A stretch of DNA of 64,000 nt from Myxococcales bacterium. GTDB lineage: Bacteria > Myxococcota > Myxococcia > Myxococcales > JAJYLH01. This document shows, piece by piece, positions 23,503 to 28,760 of this stretch (the stretch's first letter is position 1; each line of letters opens with the position of its first letter). The stretch is taken from contig JAJYLH010000002.1 in NCBI GenBank assembly GCA_021787845.1, forward strand, positions 62,001 through 126,000, written 5' to 3'. The translations under genes and the position numbers were made by a program. The notes beneath the pieces were generated by a model that was given only the letters and a program-made list of their open reading frames with translations, was not told the DNA's origin and ran no database searches.

Positions 23503-24504
23503 TCACGCGCTCGCGCGCCGGAGGCGATCGCGGACCGCGGCCCAGGCGGGCCCTTCTGGAACGCTCTCGATCAGCACGTCGGTCGCGCCGGCCTCGTCCA
23601 TCGCGTGCAGCGCCGCGTACAAGCCGCGGGCGTAGACTTCCGGCGAGGAACCGAGCTGCTTCCAGGCCACGAGGCGCCGATCCGCCGGGGCTGGCAGCTC
23701 ACGCACGACGACCCCGATGCGCGCGCCGGCCGCCAGCGCAGCCAGCGCCTCAGGCAGTGCCGCGCCCGCGACGAGCCGGGTCTTGCCTCGGGGCGCGTAA
23801 TGGCGCGAGAGCATCCCCGGGGACGTGCGCTGGCCGGCGTCGAGGGCGACATCGACCGTCTCCACCGGACCAATCACCGACGCGAGAGCAGCAGCGCTCA
23901 CGCCTCCCGGGCGGAGCACCCGCGGGCGGTCGACGGTCAGGTCGAGGACCGTCGATTCGATGCCGACCTCGCACGGTCCCCCGTCGAGGAGCAGGTCGAC
24001 ATGGTCGCCGAGGCTCGCCGCGACGTGCGCCGCGGTCGTGGGCGAGACCGCGCCGAATCGGTTCGCGCTCGGCGCCGCGAGCGCAAGCCCGCAGGCTTCG
24101 AGGAGGGCCCGTGCGACCGGATGCGAGGGCGAGCGCAAGGCGACCGAATCGAGCCCGGCCGTCACCAACGGCGGAACCGCGGCCGTCTTCGGCACGACCA
24201 GCGTCAGCGGTCCCGGCCAGAAGGCGTCCACGAGGTCCTCCGCCGCTTCCGGCCAGCGGGACGCCAACCGCTTCGCGTCGGCGGTGCCGAGCACATGGAC
24301 GATGAGCGGGTTGAACGCCGGCCGGCCCTTCGCCTCGAAGATGCGTCGGACCGCCCGTTCGTCGAGCGCGTTCGCCGCGAGCCCGTAAACCGTCTCGGTC
24401 GGCATGGCGACGAGCGCGCCCGCGCGAATCGCCGCTGCCGCCTCCTCGATCGCCGCCCGATCGAGGTCGCCGGAGACGTCATACGCTCCAACACGCCTCA
24501 CCAT
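23503..24504 (-). CDS. L-threonylcarbamoyladenylate synthase (Sua5 type)
   Basis: 333 residues. The YrdC domain has the PTETVYGLAANALD opening, the KGRPAFNPLIVHV substrate loop, RSPSHPVA and the APSANRFGAVSPTTA motif. The C-terminal Sua5 domain (about 220-333) includes SPGMLSRHYAPR. The enzyme condenses threonine, bicarbonate and ATP to threonylcarbamoyl-AMP for t6A in tRNAs reading ANN codons. The extra C-terminal domain distinguishes it from short TsaC. Confidence 0.95.
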   Translation of the reverse strand: MVRRVGAYDVSGDLDRAAIEEAAAAIRAGALVAMPTETVYGLAANALDERAVRRIFEAKGRPAFNPLIVHVLGTADAKRLASRWPEAAEDLVDAFWPGPLTLVVPKTAAVPPLVTAGLDSVALRSPSHPVARALLEACGLALAAPSANRFGAVSPTTAAHVAASLGDHVDLLLDGGPCEVGIESTVLDLTVDRPRVLRPGGVSAAALASVIGPVETVDVALDAGQRTSPGMLSRHYAPRGKTRLVAGAALPEALAALAAGARIGVVVRELPAPADRRLVAWKQLGSSPEVYARGLYAALHAMDEAGATDVLIESVPEGPAWAAVRDRLRRASA

Positions 24505-24566: not shown

Positions 24567-26918
24567 CTAGAACCTCTGCTGCGCTCCCGAGAAGCTCACG
24601 GTCAGCCCGAGCGTCGAGTCCGCGAGCAGCGCGTACGGCTGGCCGCCCGTCTTGAGCAGGAGGAGGTCCAAGCCCGCCTGGAGCGCAAGGGGGCCCCCCA
24701 GGGGGACGAGCAGCCGTGCTCGAAAGCGTCCCTCGTGTTGGGGGTTGCCGCCCAGGTCGTAGACGAAGTAGTCGAGGCTCGATTCGATGCTGACCGGCAG
24801 GCCGTGCACCTTCGCCGGCGAGAAGCGCGGCAGGTCGTAACCGGTCTCGAGGCCGTAACGCGCGCGCCCGTTCGGATCGAGCACCTCGCGCCGCACGCCG
24901 ATGCCGAGCTTGAGCTCCAGCGGTCGCACCGGGAGCAGCCGCACCCCCACCGTCGCGCCGAGCTCCTCATGCCGGTAGGGTGCGCCCGTTGCTTGGGTGA
25001 ATTCGGTGTCGAGCGTGCCGCCCGCGTAGGGCAGCGGCGCCCACCAAGCGTTCGCCTCGAGCCGCTTGACGAGGCGCAGGCGATAGAGCGCCTCGACGAA
25101 GGCCTGATCGTCGGTCTCCGCCGGCGGGGCGTGCTCGACCCAGCTCTCGCCGTACTTCGCGAGCGCGGTCAGCCGCACCGACTGGTCGCGCGCGTCCGCG
25201 TCGAGGCGCCCGGTCGCCTCGCCGCTGATGGCACCCGCCTTCGGGCGCGCGATGCGCGGGTCGGTATAGCCGGGCGAATTGGTGAGGTAGGTATCGCTCC
25301 CGGTGAGCGCGAGCCCATAGCTCCAGCTTAAGCGCAGCCGCCCGGCGAGGTCGAGCCGGCGTCCGCCGGCGAGCGCACGCGTACCGAAACGCGGGTCGAG
25401 CAGCGCTTCGAGGGCGAGCTGTCGCAGCACCAGCGCCCGGCCGCGCGCCTTCACCGTCTCGTAGGCGAGGCGTTTGCCGAGCAGCGCGTCGCCGCCGCGG
25501 GCGAGGTAGTCCGGCAGCGCGAGCTCATAGGTCGACGCGTCGTCGAGCGGCCGGTCGTTGACGAACACCTGCTTCTTCTTCTCACCGATGCCCGCCCACG
25601 CGAGCAGCGGCGCCTTCGTCTTCGACCCGAGCCAGAGCTTACGCAGCGCGCCACCCTCGATGCGGGCGCGCGCGAGCTTGTCCGCGTAGGGCATCGCCGC
25701 GAACACGTCGGCCGCGCTCACCGCGCCGCGCAGGGGGAAGACCGAGGTGTCGAGGAGCAGCTCGTTCGTGACCGCCACCTCCGCGTGCGCGTGCCGCCGC
25801 ATCTGGTCGAGCAGGAACGAGAGGAACGCCCGCACGCCGACGGGCTTCGTCGCCCGCGCTGGCAGCGGCCGGTCGAGGGCGCGGCAGTACTCGGCGTCGA
25901 GCGCGCGCATCTCGTCGTGCAGCGCGAGCTGCGGCTGCGCCGCGTCCAGGCGCGAGGTCGCGAGGCGTACCACCCGAAAGCCACCGCCGCTCGGCGCGAG
26001 GTCGACGTCCACCCGCACCACGCTCGTCGGCGTCCAGCCGCTCGCTGCGATGGCGGGCCCGCTCACCGGCTCCAGCGCGGCTGCCAGCTCAGAGGCTTGC
26101 CCGATGCGGTTCAGGAGAATGAGAGCGGTGCCGCCTAGCTCGGTTCCGGACGCCAGCATCCGGCGCAGCCCCGCGTCCGTCTGCAGGTGCACCGCCGCGA
26201 CGACCACCTGCGCGCCAGCCGCTTTCGCTTCCTTCGCCTGCGCCGCGAGCGCCTCCGTGAGCGGTGTGATCGACAACCCCTTCGCGTTCGCCGGGTCGAT
26301 CGCGGTGACGACGTCATCGCTCGTGACGCCGACGATCGCGACGCGCAGCCCATCGACCTCGAGCATTCGGCGCGGGGGAAGCGCCGCGAGCAACGAACAC
26401 GACGGCCCTTGGGAGCAGGTCGCGGTGGCGTCGAGGAAGTGCGTGCCGCTCCCCGGCAGCGCTTTCAGGAGGCGTGCCCGAAGGGCGGGCGCCCGATTGA
26501 AGAAGTCGTCGCCGAGGATCGCGTCGGTGAAACCGAGTCGGCCGACGAAGCGCGACAGACGAGCCGCGCCCTCCGGCGTGGAGAGCAGGTAGCGCCCGAC
26601 GGCGCCGGCGCCCGGAAAATCGCCGAGCTGAATCGCGGCGACGACGGTGCGCCCGTCGCCTTCGGCCTGCGCCCGCGCTGTCTGGAGCGAGGCGGCGAGG
26701 TTTCCGAGGTCCCGCGCCCGCGCGCGGTCGGCGGCGCTCGGATGGCACTTGGGCGAGGCGAGCGCGCCGTCGAGGTCCGAGGAAATCAGAAAGGTCCAAC
26801 GCCTGATCGGCTCGGCGGCGCGGGCGGGAGTCGAAACGCCCACGAGCAGCACGACCGACAGGGGGAAGGCGAGCGAACGCACGCGGCTGGTTTGGCCGAT
26901 GCGCGGCGTTGCTGTCAA
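24567..26918 (-). CDS. UshA-like 5'-nucleotidase homologue with degenerate active site fused to an outer-membrane barrel
   Basis: 783 residues. The signal peptide ends near STPARAAE. Residues about 40-330 follow the 5'-nucleotidase metallophosphatase fold, but the metal and catalytic motifs are altered: DxHG reads SDLDG, the GNHE motif reads LGDDFF and the late GHxH is absent; only QLGDF and AAVH remain. Residues about 340-520 match the 5'-nucleotidase C-terminal domain (AEVAVTNELLLD, ADVFAAMPYADKLARARIEG). From about 540 the protein turns into amphipathic strands and ends in VSFSGAQQRF, suggesting a C-terminal beta-barrel. It probably binds a ligand without hydrolysing it. The start is TTG 26918; GTG 26882 is an alternative. 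Confidence 0.75.
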   Translation of the reverse strand: MTATPRIGQTSRVRSLAFPLSVVLLVGVSTPARAAEPIRRWTFLISSDLDGALASPKCHPSAADRARARDLGNLAASLQTARAQAEGDGRTVVAAIQLGDFPGAGAVGRYLLSTPEGAARLSRFVGRLGFTDAILGDDFFNRAPALRARLLKALPGSGTHFLDATATCSQGPSCSLLAALPPRRMLEVDGLRVAIVGVTSDDVVTAIDPANAKGLSITPLTEALAAQAKEAKAAGAQVVVAAVHLQTDAGLRRMLASGTELGGTALILLNRIGQASELAAALEPVSGPAIAASGWTPTSVVRVDVDLAPSGGGFRVVRLATSRLDAAQPQLALHDEMRALDAEYCRALDRPLPARATKPVGVRAFLSFLLDQMRRHAHAEVAVTNELLLDTSVFPLRGAVSAADVFAAMPYADKLARARIEGGALRKLWLGSKTKAPLLAWAGIGEKKKQVFVNDRPLDDASTYELALPDYLARGGDALLGKRLAYETVKARGRALVLRQLALEALLDPRFGTRALAGGRRLDLAGRLRLSWSYGLALTGSDTYLTNSPGYTDPRIARPKAGAISGEATGRLDADARDQSVRLTALAKYGESWVEHAPPAETDDQAFVEALYRLRLVKRLEANAWWAPLPYAGGTLDTEFTQATGAPYRHEELGATVGVRLLPVRPLELKLGIGVRREVLDPNGRARYGLETGYDLPRFSPAKVHGLPVSIESSLDYFVYDLGGNPQHEGRFRARLLVPLGGPLALQAGLDLLLLKTGGQPYALLADSTLGLTVSFSGAQQRF

Positions 26919-27029: not shown

Positions 27030-28586
27030 CTAGGCGGCAGCGCCGTCGGTAAGCGTCGCAGCGGCTTCGTGCGGCTGCAACCGGGTGCGCGGGAGGAAGC
27101 GTCCGTGGTCGAGGTCGTGCAGGTAGGCGAGGAGCTTCTCGCGCACGTTGCAGCGCAGGTCCCAGTTCGCGCCCGCGTCGGCGCTCGACACCAGCGCGCG
27201 CAAGGTGACCGTCCGCTCCGAGGCGTCGGTCACTTGAAGCCCCACGACACGGCCGTCCCAGAGCGGGTCCGCTTTTACTATCCGTTCGAGCTCCTCGCGA
27301 ACCCTCTGCACCGGCACCGAGTAGTCGGCATAGAGGAAGATCGTTCCCATGATTTGCGGCGCGACCTTGGTCCAGTTCTGGAACGGCTGGTCGAGAAAGC
27401 GGGTCACCGGCACCACCAGCCGCCGCTCGTCCCACACCCGCACCACCACGTAGGTCAGGGTGATTTCCTCGATCCAGCCCCACTCGTTCTCGACGATCAC
27501 CGTGTCGCCGATGCGCATCGGCTGGGTGATGGAGAGCTGGATGCCAGCGAGGAGCGTCGAAATCGTTCGCTGCGCGGCGAGGCCGAAGACGATGCCGGCG
27601 ATGCCCGCGGAAGCGAGCAGGCTCGTGCCGAGGCTGCGCACGATGGAGAACTGCATGAGGACGAGCGCGGTGCCGAGGACCACCACCGCCACCGCCACCA
27701 CCCGGCGGAGGATTTCGATTTGGGTCTTCACCGCCCGCGCGTGGGGGGGCTCGCGGGCGGCCGTGAACCGGGCCTCGAGCACGGCGGCAGCGGTGCCGGT
27801 AAACCGCATCAGCAGCCAGGTCGCCGCGATCAACAGCTCGGTGCGCACGATCTGGTCGACCGCGTGCTGGGCAGGCGCCGCGAGCTTGAGCAATCCATCG
27901 AGCGCGGCGAAGAGGGCCCCTCCGAGGAGGTAATGGCCCGGCGGCGTGAGGGCTTCGAGGAGCGCATCGTCCCACTTGGTCTCGGTCCGCCGGGCAACCT
28001 TTCGCCCGATGCCGATGCCCACCTTCGCGAGCAGCGTGCCGCCGCCCAGCGCCAACGCGAGCAGCACCACCAGGCCCAGCCATTGCCAGACCTCGATTTC
28101 CAGGAAGCGCGCCCCGAAGAACGTGTCGGGGAGGCGCCGCTCGAGGAAGCCGGCGCCGTAGATCTCGTACAGCGCGGGAATCTCCGCCACCGTCGCCGCC
28201 GAGACGCGCCACCGCGCCTGGGCGTCGCGGTCTAAGGTCACCGGCACCGCTCCCGTGGGGAGGGGAATCGTTCCGACCAGGAGCGGGCTCGTCGCGCCGG
28301 GCGCATCCGGGATGCGGTCCCAACTCACCCAGAGCTTCCGGTCCAGCACGAACTTGAGCTCTTTCGCAAGCAGAGCGCCGCGCGCCTCCCGCTTGGCCGC
28401 CGGGACCATCGACAGGTCGAGCGCTTGCGCGGCTTGCCCGGGATGACCCGCTCGGCACGCGTCGATGAAGAGCTCGAGCGTGCGCCGAGGCGTCGAAAGG
28501 TCGGGGCTGGCGGCCGCCCGCGCGAGCGTGGCGACGAGAAGCAGAGCGACACCCCAGCCGACGACCCGCGCGCGCCGCAAAACCAT
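27030..28586 (-). CDS. MscS family mechanosensitive ion channel
   Basis: 518 residues from ATG 28586, with TAGGAGGT six bases upstream. A signal-like N terminus and a periplasmic domain of about 130 residues come first, then several membrane helices and the MscS pore and beta domains (LLASAGIAGIVFGLAAQRTISTLLAGIQL cut; MRIGDTVIVENEWGWIEEITLTYVVVRVWDERRLVVP). The Gly/Ala-rich pore helix and the GDTV...G.V.EI segment define the family. It should gate at high membrane tension to relieve osmotic shock. The large N-terminal extension places it among the longer MscS homologues. Confidence 0.93.
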   Translation of the reverse strand: MVLRRARVVGWGVALLLVATLARAAASPDLSTPRRTLELFIDACRAGHPGQAAQALDLSMVPAAKREARGALLAKELKFVLDRKLWVSWDRIPDAPGATSPLLVGTIPLPTGAVPVTLDRDAQARWRVSAATVAEIPALYEIYGAGFLERRLPDTFFGARFLEIEVWQWLGLVVLLALALGGGTLLAKVGIGIGRKVARRTETKWDDALLEALTPPGHYLLGGALFAALDGLLKLAAPAQHAVDQIVRTELLIAATWLLMRFTGTAAAVLEARFTAAREPPHARAVKTQIEILRRVVAVAVVVLGTALVLMQFSIVRSLGTSLLASAGIAGIVFGLAAQRTISTLLAGIQLSITQPMRIGDTVIVENEWGWIEEITLTYVVVRVWDERRLVVPVTRFLDQPFQNWTKVAPQIMGTIFLYADYSVPVQRVREELERIVKADPLWDGRVVGLQVTDASERTVTLRALVSSADAGANWDLRCNVREKLLAYLHDLDHGRFLPRTRLQPHEAAATLTDGAAA

Positions 28587-28760
28587 CCGAGCACCTCCTA
28601 CCCGCCAATGAAGAAGCGTTCTTCGGCTCGTCGTCCCCACTACGCGCATCGAACGACGGATGCAAGGCGCGCCTGCCTGCGGAGCGAGGGGGCACGACGC
28701 CGGCCCGTCGGCCGCAAGAGGCCAAACGGAAGCGCTCCCGCCATCAGGCAGCGGTGCGGA

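Follow-up and report, generated by a model that had tools for sequence, protein, structure and literature searches.

5'-Nucleotidases of the UshA, NadN and CD73 type are built from two domains. The first has a metallophosphoesterase fold, and its DxH, GD, GNHE and GHxH motifs, with a further His in an AH motif, make up a two-metal site. The second is the 5_nucleotid_C domain (PF02872). Its NxGGxR, LPF and GGDGF motifs bind the nucleotide. Barrels of 12 strands occur in the outer membrane in quite different proteins: in Tsx, a nucleoside channel (PF03502), and in type Va autotransporters such as NalP and EstA, where the barrel lies C-terminal to a soluble part. In MOSP of Treponema denticola, an N-terminal periplasmic domain is joined to a C-terminal porin barrel (PMC5643300).

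The window, by which we mean the whole 64,000-nucleotide stretch of Myxococcales DNA that was analysed, encodes a protein that resembles each of these systems in part. With the nucleotidases it shares the two-domain fold and a PF02872 match above cut-off; it differs from them in that GHxH and the catalytic His are lost, substrate-type residues are changed and a predicted outer-membrane barrel is fused to the end. Tsx is the best VIA-align match of that 12-strand barrel, but the window protein has no Pfam match to its family, a negligible hhalign score and an extra N-terminal domain of 500 residues. Type Va autotransporters have the same order of soluble part and barrel and give the best Foldseek E-values, whereas the window protein has no listed PF03797 match, shows no pore helix in its model and fits their barrels less well in VIA-align. 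MOSP is an analogue in the way it works: it has two parts, a barrel in the outer membrane and an N-domain on the periplasmic side. We claim no kinship with it, and PMC5643300 describes the N-domain as an extended hydrophilic monomer, unlike the nucleotidase fold found here.

An earlier note on this DNA had read the gene product as an exported, nucleotidase-like protein without its metal site, followed by a strand-rich barrel. It had suggested a nucleotide-binding outer-membrane receptor derived from UshA. Here we report a computational analysis of that proposal. Our preferred explanation, to which we give a probability of roughly 0.5, is a channel in the outer membrane to which a periplasmic pseudo-nucleotidase is tethered as a binding, docking or gating module. 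The figure is for the explanation as a whole, which includes the proposal that the N-terminal half would no longer cleave nucleotides by the ordinary two-metal mechanism.

The gene and its nucleotidase half

The coding sequence lies at 24567..26918 on the reverse (-) strand, as do all the features of the protein given below. Translation from a TTG at 26918 yields 783 amino acids; a GTG in the same frame at 26882 would give 771, and residues are numbered here from this GTG. The frame is open over all 783 codons, and its GC content by codon position (0.744/0.527/0.894) is gene-like. We reject pseudogene decay because of this open frame, the typical codon-position GC and the purifying selection seen in sister pairs (see below). 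Export is supported by a Sec-type signal peptide (...SLAFPLSVVLLVGVSTPARA, then AEP; 26817..26918), read by eye from the sequence.

Pfam recognises only 5_nucleotid_C in the protein, at residues 345-466 (25485..25850), with an E-value of 3.5e-12 and 47.2 bits against a cut-off of 23.6. No Metallophos match is listed for the window protein or for the related barrel-fusion proteins described below. The degenerate metallophosphoesterase-fold domain, residues 25-338 (25869..26810), is supported by a VIA-align match to snake 5'-nucleotidase (5h7w_B; Z 25.9, rmsd 3.1, 285 residues aligned), with which NadN (3ztv) ties at Z 25.9 with an rmsd of 7.4 over 329 residues. In a full-length AlphaFold2 model built from seven sequences, a nucleotidase fold of two domains precedes 12 strands; the model's best solved match in Foldseek is UshA (1oid_B, E 1.3e-16). 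With a mean pLDDT of 69.3 and a pTM of 0.45, this model leaves the placement of the domains and much of the C-terminal nucleotidase domain unsure; the latter is the less sure part, many of its blocks falling below pLDDT 60. Descent from the UshA/5'-nucleotidase superfamily is backed by the PF02872, Foldseek and VIA-align matches alike.

How much of the active site is left? In the alignment with an intact paralogue from the same genome (L002), the window motifs SDLDG, LGDF, LGDDFF, VHLQ and NRIG stand against NDLHG, GDLF, GNHEF, AHAGG and GHTHQ. The DxH position (D36-L-D38, 26769..26777) keeps its D and has D for H. The GD position (D88, 26619..26621) and the AH position (H232, 26187..26189) are kept. 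At the GNHE position (G124-D125-D126, 26505..26513) Asp replaces both the Asn and the catalytic His, and at the GHxH position (N258-R-I-G261, 26100..26111) both His are lost. Of the complete two-metal site, then, the protein retains D36, D88 and H232 only. The motifs quoted in the earlier note (SDLDG, LGDDFF and a missing GHxH) are exact and in register with the paralogue. Its phrase 'without its metal site' is right about GHxH and the catalytic His but too strong for a protein that has three residues at canonical positions and Asp at three more.

The second domain is altered as well. N373 is kept, NxGGxR reads NELLLD (R to D) and LPF reads MPY (F to Y, Y399); GGDGF, which lies at or just beyond the end of the PF02872 domain, reads GGDAL (F to L). 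The earlier note had called this domain well kept, and its Pfam score agrees; the changes in NxGGxR and GGDGF and the less sure modelling do not. Nucleotide binding, which the note had suggested for the protein, finds no support in the sequence because several substrate-type residues are lost, including the NxGGxR Arg and the GGDGF aromatic, although N373 and the aromatic Y399 remain.

The same genome also encodes a 363-residue frame (L110, G000:C2:3198-3740) that has a 5_nucleotid_C domain, apparently without a metallophosphoesterase domain.

The predicted barrel and its nearest shapes

Between the last nucleotidase helix and the first barrel strand runs a low-confidence linker (25335..25397), where residues 461-514 fall below pLDDT 50 in the full model. 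The region beyond it, 24570..25343, is predicted to form a 12-strand outer-membrane beta-barrel that ends in Phe. Predicted alone from 19 sequences, the barrel again has 12 strands and reaches a pLDDT of 89.2 and a pTM of 0.81. The strand-rich barrel of the earlier note is upheld by this prediction, and its placement in the outer membrane gains plausibility from the predicted strand number and from the C-terminal Phe, the last residue in 18 of 19 rows. Alternation of polar and apolar residues is clear in eight of the 12 strands and weak in b1, b3, b4 and b8; the mean hydropathy of alternating positions is 2.14 versus -1.98 in b2 and 2.30 versus -2.47 in b7. Mean KL over the barrel is 1.85. The last two residues apart, its most conserved non-strand parts are loop L3 (24969..25001; mean KL 2.33, the highest of the loops) and turn T2 (W..P; 25035..25076; mean KL 2.20). 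With the usual topology of outer-membrane proteins, in which both termini lie in the periplasm, L3 would be extracellular and T2 periplasmic.

The two structure searches rank the known barrels differently. VIA-align places Tsx first (1tlw_B; Z 16.2, rmsd 3.2, 206 residues aligned) and OMPLA next (Z 13.9, rmsd 4.5, 211 aligned), and includes the autotransporters AaaA (Z 12.4) and NalP (Z 11.7). In Foldseek the best E-values belong to NalP (8.2e-07, TM-score 0.40) and EstA (8.6e-07, TM-score 0.41), and Tsx stands at rank 37 by E-value (8.7e-05) with a TM-score of 0.53.

Kinship with Tsx by sequence was considered and rejected: hhalign gave a probability of 0.4% where its reversed control reached 0.3%, and the window protein has no PF03502 match at E 0.1. 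Across 146 genomes PF03502 matched weakly in four, never above cut-off and never in the genome of the window (G000). Comparisons by hhalign with Tsx, PldA, NanC, Ag43 and OmpG gave 0.2 to 0.6%, with reversed controls at 0.1 to 0.3%, and a Pfam scan of 20 barrel-fusion proteins found no barrel family better than one DUF3078 match (1/20, E 0.0092). Neither Pfam nor hhalign ties the barrel by sequence to a known family of channels. The lead to Tsx is therefore one of shape alone; as the closest solved barrel by VIA-align, Tsx keeps a nucleoside link open. Since the barrel has no good Pfam family in these 20 proteins, a dedicated model may be warranted.

The fusion across the phylum

Of 195 genomes of the phylum searched with a profile of the barrel alone (A3), 21 carry the fusion; they fall under nine family codes. 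Every barrel match sits in a frame of 505 residues (cut by a contig end) to 1091 residues. Because 20 further genomes carry the same fusion, we exclude chance or an oddity of the window. Contig searches gave no match with the window protein alone and seven loci with the f11/f31 alignment, no new member among them. The most divergent barrel member, L107 (G189:C15), has 1060 residues, a longer N-terminal part and weak matches to the N- and C-domain profiles.

A full-length alignment (A7) covers twenty members, of which L008 and L039 are cut, and omits L107 (E 1e-10); a second alignment (A5) leaves out both L039 and L107. Counts for N-terminal motifs are over 19 members, as L008 has no N-terminus, and other counts are over 20. 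PF02872 was found in 18 of the 20. Both His of GHxH are lost in 20/20, and none of the 20 is an intact enzyme. The catalytic His is present in 4/19, the GNHE Asn in 10/19, the GD Asp in 16/19 and the AH His in 14/19; the NxGGxR Arg survives in 5/20, and an aromatic residue aligns at GGDGF in 9/20. Two cysteines, C46 and C333, are conserved at 90% or more.

For comparison, 77 candidate loci gave 71 rows after removal of L108 (the same gene as L002) and five near-copies. In the canonical rows of the phylum the first GHxH His is present in 41/43, the second in 43/43 and the catalytic His in 42/43, counts that are biased towards well-kept enzymes because the rows are mostly the best-scoring matches of one Pfam search; they include L110, seemingly without an N-domain. 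DxY stands in place of DxH in 29 of the 43 (L119-L148 and others), and in most of these rows the remaining site residues are intact; on its own, then, the DLY seen in f11 members does not count as a loss.

In a tree of the nucleotidase part, with the barrel columns excluded, all 19 placed barrel members fall on one side of a 100/100 branch. This tree leaves out L008, and its controls were thinned to 21 of the 43 canonical and 8 of the 28 lipoprotein rows. Where the window protein sits within the clade is unsure, because it forms a long branch joined to L104, a case for which the tool gives a warning. Most simply read, these sequences point to a single fusion, with loss of GHxH, that would have come before the members split, the other site residues then changing lineage by lineage.

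The lipoprotein rows (family f4; L009-L021 and L042-L061, 28 distinct rows) are proteins of about 550 residues with no barrel, and they form a second pseudo-nucleotidase clade, also at 100/100, in the tree with 8 of the 28. GD, GNHE, the NxGGxR Arg and the GGDGF Phe are kept in 28/28, and all 28 lack the D of DxH, AH and the first His of GHxH. They could be real nucleotide-binding lipoproteins.

Selection was estimated from dN/dS in six sister pairs, with approximate domain borders set at fixed offsets from the C-terminus. Values for the N-domain, C-domain and barrel are 0.31/0.22/0.15 (L005-L006), 0.31/0.19/0.14 (L040-L041), 0.50/0.39/0.19 (L004-L005) and 0.28/0.34/0.08 (L098-L102, where the barrel dS of 2.47 is near saturation). 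Two pairs give one value each, dS being undefined in the other two domains: 0.095 for the barrel in L098-L099 and 0.07 for the N-domain in L097-L101 (dS 4.27). All values are well below 1, and in each of the four pairs that have a value for every domain the lowest is the barrel's. The sister pairs are under purifying selection, usually strongest on the barrel; this holds for sister lineages, the window's own lineage being without a close relative. As the same build occurs in several families of the phylum, the fusion looks like a retained, probably non-enzymatic membrane protein and not a decaying gene.

Directly upstream of the gene lies one for an MscS-type channel (27030-28649, reverse strand), and a Sua5-type gene (23503-24504, reverse strand) occupies the other flank. 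An MscS-type gene, here in the opposite orientation, likewise adjoins the homologue in G023 (L066:2708-3859). The comparison of neighbours took in 10 of the 21 barrel loci, namely the window and L062-L070 (L097-L107 were left out), some on short contigs. L064 and L065, from one genus, have a MaoC-type gene in common, and L066 and L070 have two genes some kilobases away. No neighbour recurs in more than two of the 10 loci, and none names a substrate.

Among the matches listed by text searches of open-access (PMC) papers, none describes this fusion. Its novelty is provisional: the search covered open-access papers, and most subscription papers lie outside that scope.

Proposed mechanism and alternatives

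We propose that the exported protein would place its C-terminal 12-strand barrel in the outer membrane as the functional core, where it would most likely be a small-solute channel with an open pore. The pseudo-5'-nucleotidase would then lie on the periplasmic side and, as a folded domain, might bind at, dock on or gate the barrel's opening to the periplasm. As to the solute, the Tsx-like shape and the origin of the domain give no more than a lead to a nucleoside or phosphate ester. In a bolder version, a dead nucleotidase fused to a Tsx-like channel would supply that channel with a binding or gate domain of its own in the periplasm, in an uptake system for nucleosides or related phosphate esters used across the phylum. 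We consider that version unlikely.

Could the soluble half instead face outwards? In the manner of an autotransporter, the 12-strand barrel would display the pseudo-nucleotidase on the cell surface as a binder or adhesin. The predicted order, passenger and then C-terminal barrel, fits this arrangement, as do NalP and EstA at the head of the Foldseek list and the presence of AaaA and NalP among the VIA-align matches. The linkers of the f3 and f11 members also hold, immediately ahead of strand 1, an NFPDLARxLRW-like and possibly helical segment. Of the three alternatives we rate display the least improbable. It is still improbable: the Tsx and OMPLA barrels fit better in VIA-align, PF03797 is absent both from the matches of the window protein up to E 0.1 and from the families listed up to E 0.01 for the 20 members, the window linker is modelled with low confidence, and L007, L008, L040 and L041 have Pro-rich linkers. 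C46 and C333 also count against it, as conserved cysteines are unusual in autotransporter passengers.

Alternatively, an enzyme anchored in the outer membrane might act on another phosphate ester through an altered site, perhaps with one metal or rich in Asp. The window protein has Asp at both the D and H positions of DxH and at the Asn and His of GNHE, sister lineages show purifying selection on the domain, and the retention of the GD and AH residues in most members leaves room for metal, so that a residual site may persist. Against this, GHxH is lost in every aligned member, the catalytic His is absent from 15 of 19, and the remaining site residues vary by lineage, whereas enzymes usually conserve their active site best of all. 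We find an altered enzyme doubtful, and we rank it below surface display. Least likely of the three is a structural or envelope role, with the fold as a scaffold for complexes, for contact with peptidoglycan or for barrel assembly, and a barrel that is no pore. Two observations suit such a role: each ligand or catalytic residue of the former active site is missing from at least some lineages, and where a pair has a value for every domain the barrel is the part that changes more slowly. Conserved polar positions in the strands, probably facing the lumen (the even positions of b7 are 62% polar or charged, KL 2.40), together with loop L3 suggest a functional lumen instead.

A channel with a tethered pseudo-nucleotidase is thus the reading we favour. 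For annotation, a PF02872 match alone is poor ground for naming such proteins 5'-nucleotidases. If the channel reading is true, an enzyme has been turned into a channel part. The family would be a bacterial clade of pseudoenzymes built into an outer-membrane barrel, in which a periplasmic enzyme was recruited as a channel module.
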